Positions 2,224 to 24,381 of a DNA stretch of 24,381 bases are shown piece after piece. Where the stretch lies: the IMG/VR virus record IMGVR_UViG_3300028598_000008, positions 1 to 24,381 of that record. One strand, written 5' to 3'. This DNA comes from a virus. Under the pieces are notes generated by a model. That model was not told the DNA's origin. It made no database searches and saw only the letters and a list, made by a program, of their open reading frames with translations. Every line of letters begins with the position of its first letter. Position 1 is the stretch's first letter. The position numbers and the translations under genes are program-made.

Positions 2224-2427
2224 ATGAAAGACGATAGAAAAGATTATATGCGTCGATTAATTGCAGAAATCCGTGAGGACATGGCAGACGATCCAGACAT
2301 TAAGAAATATCGTGAGCAGTTTGGCGAGGATGTTGTTACTGGGAAATGGGTAAATATATCCCTGCTTTGTGATGTTGTTGAAAACGAAGTGCTAGTTGAG
2401 GAAACCATGAGCGAGGATCAACGTTAA
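2224..2427 (+). CDS. Hypothetical early protein, 67 aa
   Basis: A small acidic protein of 67 residues with charged helices at both ends and a short hydrophobic middle (WVNISLLCDVV). GAGGGCGATC lies just before the ATG. Its stop shares a base with the start of the next gene in a TAATG overlap, so it is probably translationally coupled to the methyltransferase-like gene at 2427. Function unknown. Confidence 0.65.
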   Translation: MKDDRKDYMRRLIAEIREDMADDPDIKKYREQFGEDVVTGKWVNISLLCDVVENEVLVEETMSEDQR

Positions 2428-3014
2428 TGCAATCAATCACTGAACTACCCTATAAACGAGTAGAACAGAATAAAGTTATGAGAATGACGCGGGTTTGGGC
2501 TATGCCTAACGGTGAAACCTTTGATATTCCGCCAATAGGGGATTTTGTGAGGCACTTTATAGAGAAATCTACGGTGAGTATTGACCCATTTTCACGGAAT
2601 AAGCGATGGGCGGCCTATACCAACGATTTGAACCCTAATACTGAGGCGCAGCATCACATGGAATGCGAGGAATTTCTGTCCATGCTGGTTGATGAGGGCG
2701 TTAAAGCGGATCTGATGATTCTTGACCCGCCATATAGCCCAAGGCAGGTAAAAGAATGTTATGACTCCATCGGATTAAAAATGGCACAGGAAGACGCAAT
2801 GGGTGGCGCAGCCAGGAAGCGAAGACGTGAACTGATCAACAAGATCATTGGAAAGGATGGCATTGTCCTAACCTTTGGGTGGGATACTAACGGCATGGGC
2901 GGAAATGAATGGCAGATAGAAGAAATTATGCTGGTGGCGCATGGCTCAGACCATAACGACACAATTTGTATGGCGGAACGAAGGCGCACCGAGCAAGGCC
3001 GTTTATTTGAGTAA
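2427..3014 (+). CDS. DNA adenine methyltransferase-like protein (DPPY motif)
   Basis: The protein has ILDPPYSP at residues 98-105, the catalytic motif IV of amino-methyltransferases that modify adenine N6 or cytosine N4. The segment SIDPFSRNKRWAAYTNDLNP at 51-70 is consistent with cofactor-binding and substrate elements of phage adenine methylases. The C-terminal half has a beta-strand (GIVLTFGWDTNG) and an RRRTEQGRLFE tail. Its 195 residues make it a small, stand-alone modification enzyme without a recognisable specificity domain. It is joined upstream by TAATG coupling and followed after 18 bases by a second methyltransferase. The likely role is protection of phage DNA or regulation by methylation; the target sequence is unknown. 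An alternative is a catalytically weak relative, since a classical motif I glycine loop is not obvious. Confidence 0.75.
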   Translation: MQSITELPYKRVEQNKVMRMTRVWAMPNGETFDIPPIGDFVRHFIEKSTVSIDPFSRNKRWAAYTNDLNPNTEAQHHMECEEFLSMLVDEGVKADLMILDPPYSPRQVKECYDSIGLKMAQEDAMGGAARKRRRELINKIIGKDGIVLTFGWDTNGMGGNEWQIEEIMLVAHGSDHNDTICMAERRRTEQGRLFE

Positions 3015-3032: not shown

Positions 3033-3683
3033 ATGGTTGAGTTGTTAAATATAGACTGCATGGAATACATGGCAACTCAGCCGGATAATGCGTTTGATTT
3101 GGCGATTGTTGATCCGCCTTATGGGATAGGTAGTTGGGTGAGGGACTCATACACAAGCAAAGGCGGAAAAGGGCCAAGAGTTCCCAATACATCATCATGG
3201 GCAAAAGGCGTGAAATGGAACGATGAGATTCCGCAGGAAAGCTATTTTGCAGAATTAAGGAGAATTTCAGATAGACAACTAATATGGGGCGCGAATTACT
3301 ATAATTGTTTTAACGGCGGGGCTTTAATCTGGTACAAGGGCGATCAAGCCAAAACGGTTTCACATGCGGAGATCGCAAGTTTATCATTTCAAAACCGTGT
3401 TGACCTAGTGCATATAAATTGGCAACCAGGATTCTATAGGAAATTGCATGGCGAGCAGATTCATCCTTGTCAGAAACCCGTAAAACTTTATGAATGGATA
3501 TTAAAAAATTACGCCGAATCCGATCAAAGAATATTAGATACCCACTTAGGAAGCGGATCGAGCGCCATTGCTGCCCACTACTTCGGATGTGACTTTGTAG
3601 GGTGCGAGATTGATCCAGATTATTACCAAGCCGCAAAGCAACGGTTTGACAACGAGACTCGGCAGATGAGTTTGAGGGTGTAA
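3033..3683 (+). CDS. DNA (N6-adenine or N4-cytosine) methyltransferase
   Basis: A 216-residue enzyme with motifs in the beta-class order. DPPYG (27-31, catalytic motif IV) comes first, then HPCQKP (144-149), then the SAM-binding LDTHLGSGS (168-176), and finally GCEIDPDYY (190-197), which places the acidic residue that contacts SAM. All key residues are present, so it is probably active. It transfers a methyl group from S-adenosylmethionine to DNA bases. It sits directly after another DPPY protein with no restriction nuclease nearby, pointing to an orphan phage methylase used against host restriction. The ATG follows GATATAGG, and the gene ends in a TAATG overlap with the NinG-like gene. Confidence 0.88.
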   Translation: MVELLNIDCMEYMATQPDNAFDLAIVDPPYGIGSWVRDSYTSKGGKGPRVPNTSSWAKGVKWNDEIPQESYFAELRRISDRQLIWGANYYNCFNGGALIWYKGDQAKTVSHAEIASLSFQNRVDLVHINWQPGFYRKLHGEQIHPCQKPVKLYEWILKNYAESDQRILDTHLGSGSSAIAAHYFGCDFVGCEIDPDYYQAAKQRFDNETRQMSLRV

Positions 3684-4285
3684 TGCCTAAACGGTGCAAA
3701 CAATGTAAGACCGAGATCGTTGATCCGACACCCTGGCGGAAACCCTTCTGCTCATACCAATGTGGTATCCAGTATGTGAGGGCCAAGGATCAGGAGAAGA
3801 AAGCCAAGAAGCAGCGCAAGGAAACACGGGAATGGAAAGAGGCCAACAAAACCAAACCACAATTAATCAAAGAGGCGCATCAAGATGGCTTTAATCCTTA
3901 CATCAGAATCAGAGACAAAGACAAACCGTGTATTAGTTGCGGGCGTCACGAATGGGAGATCCCGGACAAATATACAGGGGGCAAGTGGGATTGCGGGCAC
4001 TATCTATCAGTCGGGTCGTGTCAAGAGCTCCGGTTCCATGAAGATAACGCTCATAAGCAGTGCAAGGAGTGTAACGGAGGCTCCGGTAAGTACGCTCGAA
4101 AGAATCGCACAGTCAGGGAAGAATACAGGGAAAGGCTCATTGAGCGGATTGGATTAGATCGCGTGGAATGGCTCGAAGGCCCTCACCAAACCCAAAACCT
4201 CACCCATGAAGACATTAGAGAAATAAAGCAATACTACAAAGACAAGATCAAGGTACTAAAGGGGAACGACAATGAAAAGACGTGA
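3683..4285 (+). CDS. ninG: NinG/Rap-like recombination nuclease
   Basis: A 200-residue, lysine-rich protein with zinc ligands in two places. Near the N-terminus are C5-x2-C8 and C23-x3-C27. In the core are C83-x2-C86, DCGHYLS (103-109) and AHKQCKECN (123-131). The GHY...CHxxCK-C-N arrangement and the length match the lambda NinG (Rap) family, which acts in phage recombination by processing branched DNA. It begins in a TAATG overlap with the methyltransferase and its end overlaps the next gene by 14 bases. Placement in the early module just before a Q-like gene is the lambdoid nin-region order. Family assignment is confident; the exact cleavage activity is inferred from relatives. Confidence 0.88.
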   Translation: MPKRCKQCKTEIVDPTPWRKPFCSYQCGIQYVRAKDQEKKAKKQRKETREWKEANKTKPQLIKEAHQDGFNPYIRIRDKDKPCISCGRHEWEIPDKYTGGKWDCGHYLSVGSCQELRFHEDNAHKQCKECNGGSGKYARKNRTVREEYRERLIERIGLDRVEWLEGPHQTQNLTHEDIREIKQYYKDKIKVLKGNDNEKT

Positions 4286-4586
4286 GTTTCTCACCATCAG
4301 CCTGAAATTGGGTGCAGTGGCGCTAATCCCGCAGCCTGTGCTGGCCGGGACCGAGGCATTTGAGGAATATTCAACCACTTTGACCATTGGCGGGATTGAA
4401 GAAGGATCACGCATTACTATCTATCAGGGCAATGAAGCGGACGGCTATGAGCATGTGGAAACCCGGCTGATAAAAGACACCGGAGACACTCAGATCCACG
4501 AAATCACCATGAAGGAACCGCCACCTCAGCCGATCATAATACGTCAGACAAAACCAGGCGCAAGGTATATTTATGAGTCTCCATAA
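4272..4586 (+). CDS. Small secreted protein with twin-arginine signal peptide
   Basis: The N-terminus reads KRREFLTIS (residues 2-10), a very good match to the Tat consensus (R-R-x-F-L). It is followed by a moderately hydrophobic stretch ending PVLAG at about residue 26, a plausible signal-peptidase site. The mature part (about 78 residues) is beta-rich and acidic, with TLTIGGIEEGSRITIYQG near residues 36-53 and a proline run (EPPPQP) later; it has no cysteine pairs. It is predicted to be exported folded to the periplasm. The ATG overlaps the end of the NinG-like gene and follows AAAGGGGAACGACA. Phage proteins with a clear Tat signal are uncommon. A role at the cell envelope (exclusion, receptor masking) is only a guess. 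Confidence 0.75.
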   Translation: MKRREFLTISLKLGAVALIPQPVLAGTEAFEEYSTTLTIGGIEEGSRITIYQGNEADGYEHVETRLIKDTGDTQIHEITMKEPPPQPIIIRQTKPGARYIYESP

Positions 4587-10012: not shown

Positions 10013-10164
10013 GCGAACTCCTTGAGCGGATGGGCTGGTCCCAACGCTTCTTTGCCAACCACATTGGGGTGTCAGAGCAGACTGTGACCCGCTGGAACCG
10101 GGAAGGGGCCCCCGAATATGTCCTGGTGTATCTGAGACAGTGCGTGAGGTTACTGGGGTTATGA
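10009..10164 (+). CDS. Small helix-turn-helix protein, 51 aa (paralogue of 8719 gene)
   Basis: I start at 10009 (MSELLERMGW), whose ATG overlaps the preceding stop, rather than at an upstream in-frame start at 9925, which would run through the membrane peptide in another frame. The helix-turn-helix is WSQRFFANHIGVSEQTVTRWNREG, followed by a YVLVYLRQCVRLLGL helix. By eye about 19 of 44 aligned residues match the 65-residue regulator at 8719, including ANxxxVSxxT, the G-x-P and YVLxYLRQ. It is probably a DNA-binding regulator of a second promoter. Its stop overlaps the next ATG in ATGA. Confidence 0.7.
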   Translation: MSELLERMGWSQRFFANHIGVSEQTVTRWNREGAPEYVLVYLRQCVRLLGL

Positions 10165-10397
10165 GGCCATATAATCCAAAGGCATATCTTGGCAGGCAGC
10201 ACGGGAAAAGCACCTTTAATCGTATTGCGATGGAGTGTGCCTTAGACGCTGGTAAGACCGTGCTTATCTATAAACCGGGACATGCTGAACTGATGAAGCG
10301 GAAAGGTCATCTCACTTCAATCAAGACCATTAATTATAAATCACCCTCATCGGAAGAAATGATGACATGGTTTGATGAATGGAAGGACGAACCATGA
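10161..10397 (+). CDS. Small P-loop protein, 78 aa, GRQHGKST motif
   Basis: The start chosen is 10161 (MRPYNPKAYL), whose ATG overlaps the preceding TGA. Residues 10-17 read GRQHGKST, close to the SRQLGKTT-type Walker A of phage terminase ATPases, in which Arg precedes the loop. A helix and a beta-strand follow (GKTVLIYKP, 32-40), as in a P-loop fold. The protein ends after one more strand and helix, with no Walker B acidic pair visible, so it may bind but not hydrolyse nucleotide, or work as a fragment. It lies between two terminase genes, yet is too short to be a terminase. Confidence 0.6.
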   Translation: MRPYNPKAYLGRQHGKSTFNRIAMECALDAGKTVLIYKPGHAELMKRKGHLTSIKTINYKSPSSEEMMTWFDEWKDEP

Positions 10398-10543
10398 CCT
10401 TCGACGAATGGCTTGAACAGGAATACGGGGAGGACGCCGATTGGTATGAAGGCTGGAATAAGGGCGATATGCAGAAAGCCTTTGAGGCCGGGGCCGAGCT
10501 GGAGCGCAAATTTATCCAGGACCACGAATCGGGTGAGCCATGA
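10394..10543 (+). CDS. Small acidic protein, 49 aa
   Basis: A 49-residue acidic protein starting MTFDEWLEQEYG, with several Trp/Tyr and a C-terminal helix (KAFEAGAELERKF). It overlaps both neighbours by 4 bases (ATGA), so it is almost certainly translated from the cassette mRNA. It looks like small protein-protein adaptor or inhibitor peptides, but this is an impression from composition only. Confidence 0.6.
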   Translation: MTFDEWLEQEYGEDADWYEGWNKGDMQKAFEAGAELERKFIQDHESGEP

Positions 10544-10872
10544 TCACCTGGTTCTACGGTAACACGGACTCGGGTAAATCTTCGATTTCCAGCGCCTATG
10601 CCCAGATGACCGAGGCCATCCATTTAGACGGGGATGAACTTAGGAAGATTTGGCCCGAACTGGGGCTGGATGAAAGAAGTCGAAGAACCCAGAACACCCG
10701 GGCGATGAATTTAGCTATGTACCTGGAGTCCCAAGGCTTTGATGTGGTGGTATCCACCATCTGCCCTTATCGGGACCAACGGAGCGAGATTTACGACACA
10801 CTAAATTGTAAATTCGTCTATATCCACGGGGGAAAATCTGGATCGGATTACCCCTTTGAGCGCGGAGAGTAA
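10540..10872 (+). CDS. Adenylylsulfate (APS) kinase-like protein, short form
   Basis: This is a P-loop kinase fold: GNTDSGKSS at residues 7-15 (Walker A, with G7, G12, K13, S14), LDGDELR (29-35, the APS-kinase acidic substrate motif), RSRRTQNTR (46-54) and VVSTICPYRDQR (70-81). The order and spacing match APS kinases, which phosphorylate adenylyl sulfate to PAPS. It is only 110 residues against about 200, and the C-terminal part with the lid and second substrate contacts is shortened to KFVYIHGG...DYPFERGE. The substrate could differ, for instance another nucleotide or nucleoside. ATGA overlap with the gene before. A possible user of PAPS, the sulfotransferase-like protein, is encoded at 23725. 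Confidence 0.7.
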   Translation: MITWFYGNTDSGKSSISSAYAQMTEAIHLDGDELRKIWPELGLDERSRRTQNTRAMNLAMYLESQGFDVVVSTICPYRDQRSEIYDTLNCKFVYIHGGKSGSDYPFERGE

Positions 10873-10873
10873 A

Positions 10874-10936
10874 ATGGGCTGTAAAGGCAAGAAAAAGAAA
10901 GGTAAGGGTAAACGGAAGAAATATGTACGATCATGA
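10874..10936 (+). CDS. Lysine-rich micropeptide, 20 aa
   Basis: Twenty codons, 11 of them Lys or Arg (MGCKGKKKKGKG...). GGAGAG lies 5 bases upstream, an excellent ribosome site, the main support for expression. It probably contacts nucleic acid by charge. It overlaps the next small frame by 14 bases. Confidence 0.45.
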   Translation: MGCKGKKKKGKGKRKKYVRS

Positions 10937-11039
10937 CCGCCTGTTGAAAGAGGCCCGGAGACGGATCATGCGACACCGGACCTCCCGAGCCCGTCAAACG
11001 ACCTATTGGTTTCTCTACGGAGTCAGATATGGCCGGTAA
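10923..11039 (+). CDS. Basic small protein, 38 aa
   Basis: A 38-residue Arg-rich protein (RRRIMRHRTSRARQ), with a Tyr/Phe/Trp-rich C-terminus (TTYWFLYGVRYGR). ACGGAAG precedes the ATG. It overlaps both neighbours, and all three consecutive frames here are strongly basic, which suggests shared DNA-related roles. Chance is possible for a frame this short. Confidence 0.45.
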   Translation: MYDHDRLLKEARRRIMRHRTSRARQTTYWFLYGVRYGR

Positions 11040-11295
11040 GAAAACCAAGAAGAAGCTGGTTCCGCATCGGCTACAGAAGAAGCAGAACCGCTGGCAAAAG
11101 GCACTCGATGAGTCCAATGTACGCCAAGGCGAGATGAGCCCCCGTTACAAGTCTCGGTTGGATGAACAGAAACGCATTGAGGACGGGACCCTTAAGAGGG
11201 CCCGCGCCAACCAGGCCAAACGAAAGGCGGTGACGCGGAAAAAAGCCGCCAAAGGGACCGCCACCAAAAAGAAGAAAAAGAGAGCAAACAGTTGA
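11029..11295 (+). CDS. Highly basic 88-aa protein (histone-like tails)
   Basis: Strongly basic from end to end: a KKTKKKLVPHR start, a QNRW/KSRLDEQKR centre and an Ala/Lys C-terminus (KAAKGTATKKKKKR). GGAGTCAGAT lies before the ATG. The composition is like the Ala-Lys tails of histone H1-type proteins, which condense DNA nonspecifically. A packaged virion protein or DNA-compacting protein is possible. A terminator follows after 20 bases, so this ends the cassette. Confidence 0.65.
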   Translation: MAGKKTKKKLVPHRLQKKQNRWQKALDESNVRQGEMSPRYKSRLDEQKRIEDGTLKRARANQAKRKAVTRKKAAKGTATKKKKKRANS

Positions 11296-18508: not shown

Positions 18509-21500
18509 ATGGCGGTTACAGACGACTGGCAATTAGACTACACGGGCGCAAGTTCCGGTGGTGTGCCGGTATTACAACATATCGACGGGCGCGTTAATTA
18601 CGACACCTTGACGGGGAATGCGCCGTCGCTGGGGGATTACATTATCTTCAGTAACTCCGGCGTGACCGCCAAAGTCATCGGCGGCGACGATCTGGGGGGA
18701 ACCACTGCCACGGGCTACCTGGATTTAACCAATGTCACCGGGTTAATCGAAGACAACGACCCCTTCGAGGTTTTATCCACATTAGGATTCGATACCGTCA
18801 CCAATGGCGGGTTCGTCATTGGCGACACGATTACCGGCCCCACCACTGAATCCATCACGGTCAGAGCGGTTGAATACAACATGACCACCACGCAGGGCGC
18901 GGGGACGATCTACGGGGATACGGTCACAGCCGGATTTTTGAATAACGATGCCCTGAGTAATGATGGTGGTACGACTACCGTTTCTCTCGCCACCGGCGCG
19001 GAAACCGACAATTCCGGTGTGGTCACAACAGGCCAGACCGCAGGACAGCTTTCTCCTCCCGGTACGGCTAACACCAACAACGCAGCGATCATTCATTATG
19101 ACGCAGGCTCTATCGACATCCCGCATGAGGCGGCCCTGGCTGACGCAGTTACAGGCGCGACAGGTAAAGCCCAACGGTTATACGGGGACACCACCACCGG
19201 CTCGATTTACATTGTTAACTCCGATACTACCGGGGGGTCATGGACGGACAACAATACACTCAATATTGAGGATTGTGTTCAATACGACACCCTTGTTTCG
19301 GGTAAGGTCTGGGCGATTGGCGACGTACTGAAAGGCGTGACCTCATTGGTTGAGGCGCGGGTGATCGGGATCATTGTCGATACTTCGACTACGGGTAAGT
19401 TGATTCTCGCAGGCTCACCGGGTACGTTCACCAACCTTGAGAACCTGGATCGCCTCCTGGCCGATGATACCTATGAAAATGTGGCGCGAGTGGCTAACCT
19501 GACCTCAATTCTCGCCGCCGCGACCTTAAATATTCCCGCCGCCACGCCGATCATCACGACCCAACGCGCCAGTGAAGGCGGGATTTACGGCTCCGGCTCA
19601 CTCAATATTGTCCGTGACTGGGTGGAAATGTACTCCTACGTAAAAGGGGTAATGGACGACACCCTCCAACTGGATGACAAACAATCCCTCGATGGCCAGG
19701 TTAAGGACGTGGCTTACACCGTGCTTGATCCGTGGAAAATCCCTCACCTGTCACAACGCTCACTCATGAATGGTGGCTCGCAGGATGAGGCCGGGAATAA
19801 CATTTTCGTCAACATCCAGTCAGCAGGCTCCATGTACGGTGTGGGGAATCACGGATTCATCACGGATGCCACGAATCCCACCCCGCAGCCGGATTTGTAC
19901 ATCGAGCAGGACGACACGGTTATTCCGCAGTATTGGTTGAAAGGGCACATTAATACGCTGGTATTAAAGAAAACCAACCGCGATCCACAGTACATCGACG
20001 GCACGGTAGATGGATTGGGGCAGCTCATTGATAACGGTGACATTGCGGTCCATAGCCGGGAATATTTAAGAACCTACGCCTCAGCAGACAACGCCACGGT
20101 AAATGCTACAGTCGCCCCGGTGTTCTTGCAGACCATTGATGACTCCGGCAATAGCACAGGCCAGTATCGGTTTGCGTACACCACCGGATCGGGTTCGTTT
20201 ACCGAGGGCGAGGAAATCACCACCGGATCGGGCAACACCCAGAAAGTCGGGATTGTCACCGCTGACTCCGGCACCACCACGGGTAACGTGGATTATGTGC
20301 TGAAAACCGGGACCGATTTTGTTGCTACGGATGTGATTGTCGGGGAAGTCTCGGGTAAAAATGCTACCTTAACCGGCACTGTCACTAACCTAGTCGCCGG
20401 TTACGGCACGGACGTTAAGGTGATGACGGTTCAACGCCGCTTCACGGGCGGGTCCACGACTGTCGCCACTTACATCCTGGGTGAGCTTATTACCCAGACC
20501 GGCACCAATGCGACGGGTTACTTCATGGAGGATGACGGGGGCACGATTTATATTGAAGAAGAAGACATCTCGACCCCGTTTAACGGGACAGGGCTTCTGA
20601 CTGGTGGGACCTCGGGGGCACTCAATACCCCAACCGCCACCGCGACCTTCTCCACTGTACCTAAAGATATTGGCGATGGGGTGGATAATGATTATGTGGC
20701 CGCTGCTACCGCGAACCTGACCAACGGCTCTGCCCAGACCACCACTGTATGTTATGAGTGGACGAAGTTTCTGGACAGAAAAGAATCCACCATTGGTATT
20801 GCGGGGATTGGATCGGGAACGGCAGACGTTGAAGGCCGGTTCTTCCGCAAGTTCAAATCCACCTACGGGACGGCGAACAACTGTCCTCACGGATCGTTTG
20901 CTTCACCTAAAATCTTTGCCGCACAAGGCTTGTTCTGGGAGAAAGGCACTCTCGCACCGGCCAACCTGCAAGACATTCAGCTCATTGATGATGCAGGGGT
21001 AACGGAAGATCCACCTAACGTACAGCCTATTTCCATGACGGGGTTAAGTGCAGGCATGGGCGCAGGTCTGTTCAGGGCAACCGGCGCAGCAGGCGGCGGA
21101 TCGTTGGATATTCTCTCAACTGAATTTACCATTGCAGCGGGGAATCTCGCCGCTAATACGACAATCGTGTTGGCCGCAGGCACCCGATCCGTCAGCCCGA
21201 CACCGCAAGACGTTCCCGACTCCGGGGTGTTGAAGTGTGAAGATCCGAACCTGGCGGCAAGTTTCCTGAGTTTCCCGTATAGCTCAGTGGACCGATCTAC
21301 TAATACTTACACCTTAACCTCGGGGACCATTGGAGACGTGACTGGCGCTACGGCATTAACCTCAACCGAAGATGCGTTTGTGGCCTTTAACCTGGAAGTC
21401 GCGGCAGGCAGCAGCGTTTCAAACTCTGTCGAGTACGTCTCTGACTTCCCGATTGTGGGCATTGCCCGTATCAAAGGGAAAAAAGCGGATTCGTTCTCGG

Positions 21501-21571
21501 GTGACTTTACCAACACGGGCGGCGCGATTGGCGCGGTATTCTCCACCGATCCGGCGGTGAACCTACCCTGA
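18509..21571 (+). CDS. Large beta-rich virion protein, 1020 aa (fibre/appendage type)
   Basis: The largest protein in the window. The first 350 residues are tandem strand repeats of the 'F-x-x-G-D-x-I-x-G ... G-x-L-x-L' sort (for instance FVIGDTITGPTT and KVWAIGDVLKGVTS). A different domain spans about 365-530, with helical DWVEMYSYVKGVMDDTLQL, then IPQYWLKGHINTLVLKK and IAVHSREYLRTYAS. From about 560 the repeats resume (GSFTEGEEITTGSGNTQKV). It ends VFSTDPAVNLP. GAGG lies before the ATG. It is probably a fibre or appendage protein; the central domain may be the one that anchors or binds. Confidence 0.7.
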   Translation: MAVTDDWQLDYTGASSGGVPVLQHIDGRVNYDTLTGNAPSLGDYIIFSNSGVTAKVIGGDDLGGTTATGYLDLTNVTGLIEDNDPFEVLSTLGFDTVTNGGFVIGDTITGPTTESITVRAVEYNMTTTQGAGTIYGDTVTAGFLNNDALSNDGGTTTVSLATGAETDNSGVVTTGQTAGQLSPPGTANTNNAAIIHYDAGSIDIPHEAALADAVTGATGKAQRLYGDTTTGSIYIVNSDTTGGSWTDNNTLNIEDCVQYDTLVSGKVWAIGDVLKGVTSLVEARVIGIIVDTSTTGKLILAGSPGTFTNLENLDRLLADDTYENVARVANLTSILAAATLNIPAATPIITTQRASEGGIYGSGSLNIVRDWVEMYSYVKGVMDDTLQLDDKQSLDGQVKDVAYTVLDPWKIPHLSQRSLMNGGSQDEAGNNIFVNIQSAGSMYGVGNHGFITDATNPTPQPDLYIEQDDTVIPQYWLKGHINTLVLKKTNRDPQYIDGTVDGLGQLIDNGDIAVHSREYLRTYASADNATVNATVAPVFLQTIDDSGNSTGQYRFAYTTGSGSFTEGEEITTGSGNTQKVGIVTADSGTTTGNVDYVLKTGTDFVATDVIVGEVSGKNATLTGTVTNLVAGYGTDVKVMTVQRRFTGGSTTVATYILGELITQTGTNATGYFMEDDGGTIYIEEEDISTPFNGTGLLTGGTSGALNTPTATATFSTVPKDIGDGVDNDYVAAATANLTNGSAQTTTVCYEWTKFLDRKESTIGIAGIGSGTADVEGRFFRKFKSTYGTANNCPHGSFASPKIFAAQGLFWEKGTLAPANLQDIQLIDDAGVTEDPPNVQPISMTGLSAGMGAGLFRATGAAGGGSLDILSTEFTIAAGNLAANTTIVLAAGTRSVSPTPQDVPDSGVLKCEDPNLAASFLSFPYSSVDRSTNTYTLTSGTIGDVTGATALTSTEDAFVAFNLEVAAGSSVSNSVEYVSDFPIVGIARIKGKKADSFSGDFTNTGGAIGAVFSTDPAVNLP

Positions 21572-23426: not shown

Positions 23427-23728
23427 TGGATAAAGTGGAAGCTGGACTCGCCAAGATTGACGGGGCGCAAGCCGAAGCCCTCAAAGCCAATCCTGTGTGG
23501 AATGACATTCAAAAGCGCATGAGGCACAAGCTGGAGGTGAAGCGACTCTCCTGCAAGACCGCGACCGAACCGGAGTTGGCCGCAGACATCATCCGGCTTG
23601 AACAGTTGTTAAGCGGGATGCTGCGGGAGATCGAGCGGGTGATTCAAAACAAGAACCTGGCCGAACTCAAGCTGGTCGATCTGGAAAAGAAAGCGAAGCG
23701 AGCAGAACCCAGGCAAATCAAACGTTGA
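23426..23728 (+). CDS. Coiled-coil small protein, 100 aa
   Basis: Almost entirely helical: Ala/Glu/Lys heptad-like stretches from about residue 48 (ELAADIIRLEQLLSGMLREIERVIQNK) to the basic tail. Two earlier helices include RMRHKLEVKR. It looks like a virion-module coiled-coil factor (for example a bundle or chaperone subunit), with no specific family recognised. Its stop shares bases with the next TTG start (TTGA). Confidence 0.65.
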   Translation: MDKVEAGLAKIDGAQAEALKANPVWNDIQKRMRHKLEVKRLSCKTATEPELAADIIRLEQLLSGMLREIERVIQNKNLAELKLVDLEKKAKRAEPRQIKR

Positions 23729-24195
23729 AGGATCTCATTGTCTCGACCATCTGGCACACCGGTTCTCACTCGATCATGGCGATCCTCCAGGCCGATCCGG
23801 CCAACGAGGGCAGGAAAGTCACCCTGCATCACTGCAACAAGTCAGCGGAGAAGATTGCCAAGGGCGGGAAACATGAGATCGTCACGACATTCCGCGATCC
23901 CTACCGAATAGCCGCCTCCTGGTTCAACCGGGACCGGGTGAAAACCTACCCGAGAGAATGGCATACCCAGTGGGATCACTGGTCCCGGATCGCGCCTTTA
24001 GCAAGAGTGGTCCGGGTGGAGATGATCCCGAAGAAACTGAATACCCATGAAGATACCTACCAACTTCATGCCGCGTTAGACAGAGGAGATTTAGATTATT
24101 TCTATGAACGTGTCCCGATTGCCTATATTGATTACGCCAAACACATAGTCAATATAGTCAACGATTCACAAACGATTTCACTAACCGGAGAATAA
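23725..24195 (+). CDS. Sulfotransferase-like protein, 156 aa
   Basis: Two segments in the right order and spacing recall sulfotransferases. VSTIWHTGSHSIMAIL (6-21) resembles the 5'-phosphosulfate loop (G13, S14). TTFRDPYRIAASWFNRD (54-70) resembles the 3'-phosphate motif (R57, D58, S65), which binds PAPS. At 156 residues it is far shorter than the usual 250-300, and I cannot pick out a catalytic His. It may be a minimal form or a lost-function relative. The start is TTG at 23725 overlapping the previous stop. It lies between a coiled-coil gene and the acidic gene, in the virion module. The APS-kinase-like gene at 10540 could supply PAPS. Function by similarity only. Confidence 0.5.
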   Translation: MKDLIVSTIWHTGSHSIMAILQADPANEGRKVTLHHCNKSAEKIAKGGKHEIVTTFRDPYRIAASWFNRDRVKTYPREWHTQWDHWSRIAPLARVVRVEMIPKKLNTHEDTYQLHAALDRGDLDYFYERVPIAYIDYAKHIVNIVNDSQTISLTGE

Positions 24196-24197
24196 CG

Positions 24198-24381
24198 ATG
24201 GACGAGAAACCTACCCTCGATGAGGGCGCGAGTATCGAGTCTGATACAGACGAAACCGCCGAAATTGAAGCATCAGAACTTGATGGTTTGATGGAGGAAC
24301 AGGGGGACGAACTTTCAGAGGAAGACGAAAGTAAGTCCGACGAAGGCGATGCAACGAAAGATCAAGAGGAGCAGATCACCA
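24198..24381 (+). CDS. Acidic protein, N-terminal part (possible scaffold; cut by window)
   Basis: The gene runs off the right edge; 61 codons are visible. It starts MDEKPTLDEGASIESD, and nearly 40 percent of the residues are Asp or Glu. GGAG lies 7 bases upstream. A highly acidic, disordered N-terminus just before the expected capsid gene is typical of phage scaffold proteins, but the rest is missing, so this is only inference. Confidence 0.55.
   Translation, partial: MDEKPTLDEGASIESDTDETAEIEASELDGLMEEQGDELSEEDESKSDEGDATKDQEEQIT

Follow-up and report, generated by a model that had tools for sequence, protein, structure and literature searches.

APS kinases are already known in phages, and short viral forms of the enzyme (CysC) have been reported before. 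Viruses of the Challenger Deep encode CysC proteins of about 109–135 residues, which were modelled as APS kinases, stand apart from prokaryotic CysC and were read as assimilatory sulfur genes (PMC9529941). Viral cysC is usually read in this way (PMC9529941, PMC10914622). A short, lid-deleted APS-kinase-like domain is also present in PHROG 10255 ('kinase') and in protein WRQ05410 of Xanthomonas phage AhaSv. A search of the open-licence PMC literature, mostly judged by title, found no report in which viral APS kinases are connected with sulfotransferases or with an ATP sulfurylase that resembles NMNAT.

The gene described here is located in a 24,381-base phage fragment, which is one whole IMG/VR record and is referred to below as the window. 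Its product, P0001, has the same P-loop kinase fold over its full length as APS kinase (CysC, PF01583; Archaeoglobus fulgidus 7yq0/7yq1, APSK domain of human PAPSS1) and shares with it the Walker A, DGDxxR, R..xN, I-x-P-x-R and D-x-P-(Y/F)-E motifs. Unlike CysC, P0001 is ~60 residues shorter, and the lid (E. coli-type DPKGLYKKARAGE..NFTG) is absent in its entire subfamily. The PHROG 10255 profile and the AhaSv protein have an extra nucleotidyltransferase domain, whereas the window gene has none. Compared by description, the Challenger Deep proteins differ from the P0001 subfamily in context, the latter being accompanied by sulfotransferases and no CysH. The following features of the window are relevant:

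2427-3014 and 3033-3683, two adjoining DNA methyltransferase genes, with a NinG homologue coming next
8970, small terminase gene
10140-10397, ORF of 85 aa on the 5' side of the kinase gene, containing a P-loop-like GRQHGKST
10394-10543, plus strand, 49-aa ORF (sequence and translation), its stop overlapping the kinase start
10540-10872, plus strand, lid-deleted APS-kinase-family gene, P0001, 110 aa (Pfam PF01583, AlphaFold2 model, 41-member alignment)
10874-10936 and 11029-11295, small ORFs directly following the kinase gene and very rich in Lys (MGCKGKKKKGKGKRKKYVRS; MAGKKTKKKLV...)
11746, large terminase (TerL) gene
13173, portal gene; structural genes are also present
23725-24195, plus strand, candidate divergent sulfotransferase, P0002, 156 aa, starting with a TTG that overlaps the stop codon before it
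24198-24381, start of a strongly acidic, scaffold-like ORF (MDEKPTLDEGASIESDTDET...) just after the 23725 gene, running off the record

The ATG of the kinase gene overlaps the TGA of the 49-aa ORF, and the two are probably translationally coupled. Pfam and PHROG give no match for the 85-aa ORF. The products of the Lys-rich ORFs possibly bind nucleic acid. Absences within the window carry little weight because the record is a fragment.

A lid-deleted APS kinase subfamily

The first-pass annotation had placed an APS-kinase-like gene at 10540-10872. The ORF lies exactly there on the plus strand, is intact from ATG to TAA and encodes 110 aa. The Walker A, LDGDELR and CPYRDQR motifs that had been cited are present with the residues as claimed. 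Walker A occupies residues 7–14 (G7-N-T-D-S-G-K13-S14) and is followed by L29-DGD-EL-R35 (DGD at 30–32), R48 and N52; the C-terminal half contains C75-P-Y-R-D-Q-R81 (I74-C-P-Y-R78 and R81) and Y104-P-F-E107. Alignment with canonical CysC indicated that P0001 retains Walker A, DGDxLR, the R..QN region, I-C-P-Y-R and the terminal D-x-P-(Y/F)-E, with DGD, R35, R48, N52, I74, P76 and R81 conserved at the canonical positions. The conserved DGDxxR, R, N and I-x-P residues are those which we take to contact APS in APS kinases. The stretch from the FVDTP strand to GIDDPYE, which forms the lid, is missing from P0001 in this alignment.

The Pfam search returned APS_kinase (PF01583) at 4.8e-12, with 46.6 bits against a curated cut-off of 21.1, and PHROG 10255 was matched at 3.4e-9. 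The PDB sequence search gave APS kinases only (APS kinase 2.9e-7). The score against the NCBIfam equivalog TIGR00455 apsK (CysC) was 46.9 bits, far below the cut-off of 138.7. Because of this score and the missing lid, P0001 is assigned to a lid-deleted APS-kinase subfamily and is not filed as CysC.

The AlphaFold2 model of P0001, built with the 41-member alignment, has a pLDDT of 94.2, and APS kinases come first in both the Foldseek and VIA searches. The best match is 7yq0 (Z 15.1, rmsd 2.0 over 110 residues), and the first 27 entries of the VIA ranking are all either APS kinases or PAPS/ATP-sulfurylase enzymes with that domain (Z 12.4–15.1); gluconate kinase is next in the ranking (Z 12.2). 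According to the model, P0001 is a compact protein with the APS kinase fold and not a broken or truncated relic. It had initially been described as shortened to 110 residues; the protein is indeed short, but this is a trait of the whole subfamily and not a truncation. The assignment as an APS kinase is supported: the profile matches, the fold, the residues of the APS site and the context of the family all agree with it.

Full-length relatives of P0001 were found in ~25 IMG/VR phage records (31–60% identity). GTDB added 24 contigs, of which the great majority belong to Peribacteria/Peregrinibacteria and other Patescibacteria (CPR). Alignment-based scans were required for this; tblastn of annotated phages with the single sequence of P0001 or P0002, and scanning IMG/VR by 8-mers, gave nothing or weak matches. 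Thirteen columns are invariant over the 41 lidless kinase sequences, the APS-contact positions among them, as are W4 and N8. One reservation is that residue 10 in Walker A of P0001 is Asp, whereas Gly occupies this position in the other 40 of the 41 members; M56 is also unusual in the alignment. Two further matches were put aside, one to Streptomyces phage Percastrophe, which lies on the strand opposite a long annotated gene and was put down as chance, and one to a Salmonella WGS record, which is the host cysC.

Sulfotransferases and a nucleotidyltransferase in the company of the kinase

Sulfotransferases (PF13469 or PF00685, searched over whole records) are present in 17 of the 24 kinase-bearing phage records; PF13469 (E <= 0.1) accounts for 15 and PF00685 brings two more, some of the matches being weak (E up to 0.1). 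With the near-identical pair G022/G036 counted once, the figure is 16/23. By comparison, neither family was matched in any of 18 kinase-less phages related to the window phage (Fisher 2e-6). Another 12 phage records, a non-random set chosen by motif pattern or earlier matches and searched with PF13469 only, yielded one weak match. On inspection, most of the distant sulfotransferase ORFs have the expected motifs, the second ORF in G040 being doubtful.

The sulfotransferase gene directly adjoins the kinase in six non-redundant records (L027_5299, L029_3145, L030_1754, L031_5317, L035_2402 and L037_5368; Pfam Sulfotransfer_1/3 matches, some under the curated cut-off) against 1.1 expected for a random position (simulated P 3e-4, gene number taken as length/750). 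The near kinase relatives of P0001 in L027 and L108 have a sulfotransferase adjoining or one gene away. The general idea of the initial annotation, a phage APS kinase working with a sulfotransferase, is thus strongly supported in related phages (17/24 versus 0/18), and the gene content suggests that these phages bring their own kit for sulfate attachment during infection. No Pfam-level sulfotransferase (PF00685/PF13469) was detected in the window itself. As a separate observation, one phage ORF of 413 aa (L170; G026 37200-38700) apparently joins a sulfotransferase domain to one that is methyltransferase-like.

The second frequent companion of the kinase is a ~110-aa nucleotidyltransferase (NTase) of the HIGH superfamily, with the motifs GRFQPFHxGH ... 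ISATxIR, which matches PF01467 and weakly PF01747 and resembles NMNAT/cytidylyltransferases. Of the 24 kinase-bearing phage records, 13 encode it, and in most of these its gene directly adjoins the kinase gene or forms a fusion with it; among 23 cellular genomes with the lidless kinase, 18 encode it. Adjoining or fused pairs occur in the Patescibacteria contigs L131, L132, L137, L139, L140, L143 and others. The window does not encode this NTase, and neither do the records of the nearest kinase relatives (L026, L027 and L108).

Classical ATP sulfurylase shows a distribution complementary to that of the NTase, being found in 5/5 NTase-minus cellular genomes (CysD-type in G043, G048, G049 and G060; Sat in G055) versus 1/18 NTase-plus genomes, the exception being G063. 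The Fisher test gives 1.8e-4 (6.8e-4 if the Nitrosomonas genome is left out); given the incompleteness of the MAGs and the kinship among the genomes, these P values are indicative only. Weak PF01507 matches in ORFs of 368–944 aa in other genomes were excluded as CysD by our judgement of score and length. Two NTase-minus genomes of Patescibacteria, G048 and G049, contain the lidless kinase fused to CysN (L135/L136), with CysD just upstream in L136. These fusions are similar to the bifunctional PAPS synthetases and CysN-CysC fusions; many other relatives differ from the latter in pairing the kinase with the ~110-aa NTase and not with Sat or CysN.

These gene associations are most simply explained if the NTase takes the place of ATP sulfurylase and the lidless kinase acts as an APS kinase. 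With slightly better than even confidence, we read the pairing and fusion with the NTase, the complementarity with ATP sulfurylase and the CysN fusions as pointing to an undescribed minimal PAPS synthetase of CPR bacteria and phages that feeds sulfotransferases. The NMNAT-like NTase would be a new ATP sulfurylase, converting sulfate and ATP to APS, and would act together with the lidless kinase; the window phage would keep the kinase only and borrow host APS. By way of the lidless kinase, the analysis arrives at a candidate for a new kind of ATP sulfurylase, present in CPR bacteria and phages, and at a putative PAPS synthetase composed of two ~110-aa domains.

The 23725 gene as a candidate sulfotransferase

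The first-pass annotation had also proposed that the 23725 gene encodes a sulfotransferase and is the partner of the kinase. P0002 resembles sulfotransferases (PF00685/PF13469) in having a 5'-PSB-like loop, T8-I-W-H-T-G-S14 (TIWHTGS), followed by a 3'-PB-like RDPxxxAxS motif, R57-D-P-Y-R-I-A-A-S65-W (FRDPYRIAASW). It differs from them in its length of 156 aa, in the His that replaces the catalytic Lys/Arg and in the lack of a Pfam match; the NCBIfam and PDB sequence searches with P0002 were also negative, as was Pfam for its relatives. Motif and alignment scans found three phage relatives (L161/L163, L164 and L160/L165) with 30–40% identity. The family has the common motifs T-x-x-H-[TS]-G-[TS] and TT-[YF]-RDP-x-R-[VI]-AASW-x-NR.

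The hhalign comparison of the P0002 family with 11 phage sulfotransferases extended over 136 columns (P 1.7e-4, probability 49.5), with both PAPS-site motifs in register. Its score was 32.7, and the maximum in 60 column shuffles was 21.5. R57-D-P...S65 is invariant in the four family members and in register with the 11 sulfotransferases. The 5'-PSB loop is aligned as well, but all members have His where sulfotransferases have the catalytic Lys/Arg. The single P0002 sequence gave nothing in hhalign against six sulfotransferases. The AlphaFold2 model of P0002, built from three sequences only, is weak (pLDDT 71), and its Foldseek/VIA matches are mixed Rossmann-like folds with Z of at most 5.2, among them the sulfotransferase chains SULT1A3, SULT7A1 and TPST-2.

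On the strength of the aligned motifs, the balance tips a little towards P0002 being a divergent sulfotransferase. The proposed function is supported by the alignment of both motifs with phage sulfotransferases, but not by Pfam, NCBIfam or PDB matches. Its partnership with the kinase is moderately supported. No APS kinase was found near the three P0002 relatives in the stretches searched, so, by the test which the first-pass annotation itself had named, P0002 and the kinase are not obligate partners; host PAPS could serve the relatives without a kinase. A match between the C-terminal half of P0002 and a small-terminase-like ORF upstream of the L002 TerL gene (E 0.001 in a small database) lies outside the PAPS-site-like motifs and was judged to be chance.

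Possible role during infection

The reading that we prefer, with a probability of about 0.6, is that P0001 is a minimal APS kinase which makes PAPS, the activated form of sulfate in cells, during infection for a sulfotransferase whose acceptor is a component of the virion or a glycan of the host envelope. P0001 would use ATP to phosphorylate adenosine 5'-phosphosulfate (APS) at its 3'-hydroxyl, yielding PAPS. The PAPS user would most likely be the 23725-24195 product in the window phage, and an ordinary phage sulfotransferase encoded beside the kinase in related phages. Since the window lacks the NTase partner of many relatives, its kinase would depend on APS supplied by the host ATP sulfurylase or by a gene located beyond the 24-kb fragment. 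A late product is a possible acceptor, given that the kinase gene is located between the terminase genes and the 23725 gene among structural genes of the same strand. Against the preferred reading weigh the missing lid and the low CysC score, the Asp at residue 10 of Walker A, and the window's lack of both a Pfam-level sulfotransferase and the NTase. The His in P0002 and the kinase-free surroundings of its relatives, in the stretches searched, also weigh against it.

The published interpretation of viral cysC, which includes the short viral CysC (PMC9529941, PMC10914622), would make the gene an assimilatory one, boosting host sulfate reduction to cysteine via APS, PAPS and CysH, and the PAPS made could indeed feed the host's own CysH. 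Against this, PF01507 (PAPS reductase CysH/CysD) was matched neither in the 24 kinase-bearing phage records nor in the window, all of which are fragments, whereas 17 of the 24 records contain a sulfotransferase. This combination argues for sulfation over sulfate assimilation, and we regard the assimilatory role as quite improbable. The company of sulfotransferases rather than PAPS reductase points to phage-driven sulfation, as virion or host-surface decoration, which would change how viral cysC is counted in sulfur-cycle surveys. Activity on another substrate is also unlikely. The cytidine diphosphoramidate kinase of Campylobacter is an APS kinase homologue, and P0001 might be similar to it or be a NadR-like NAD-salvage partner of the NMNAT-like NTase; the missing lid, a CysC equivalog score that falls well short of the cut-off, the resemblance of the NTase to NMNAT/cytidylyltransferases and the rank of gluconate kinases directly after APS kinases are all in line with such a role. 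However, the APS-contact positions are invariant in the family, and sulfotransferases are its neighbours. The CysN fusions in L135/L136 and the complementarity of the NTase with ATP sulfurylase disfavour NadR-type NAD salvage for the NTase-kinase pair as well.

It is doubtful, though less so than either of these alternatives, that the kinase makes PAPS but has no connection with P0002, which would be some other late protein, the real sulfotransferase being a host enzyme or encoded outside the fragment. The lack of Pfam matches, the His common to all family members and the mixed fold matches would fit this view, as would the relative that sits just upstream of terminase genes, with the kinase absent from the stretch read. 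It is opposed by the PAPS-site motifs, which align in register over 136 columns with a score above all 60 column-shuffled controls, and by the three sulfotransferase chains among the weak fold matches.

Some observations concern the phage itself. The products of window 4272-4586 and L003 4759-5211 both have a twin-arginine-like signal at the N-terminus (MKRREFLTISLKLGAVALIPQPVLA; MKRRNFLKRVAIAPLALVAPKLFA), which suggests that they are exported proteins of related phages. The kinship between the window and other records is mosaic. The TerL proteins of L002–L006 are 62–63% identical to that of the window, and their structural genes are divergent. The L021 TerL is distant (30% identity), and the 1020-aa structural protein encoded at L021 12223-15279 is 87% identical to that of window 18509-21571.
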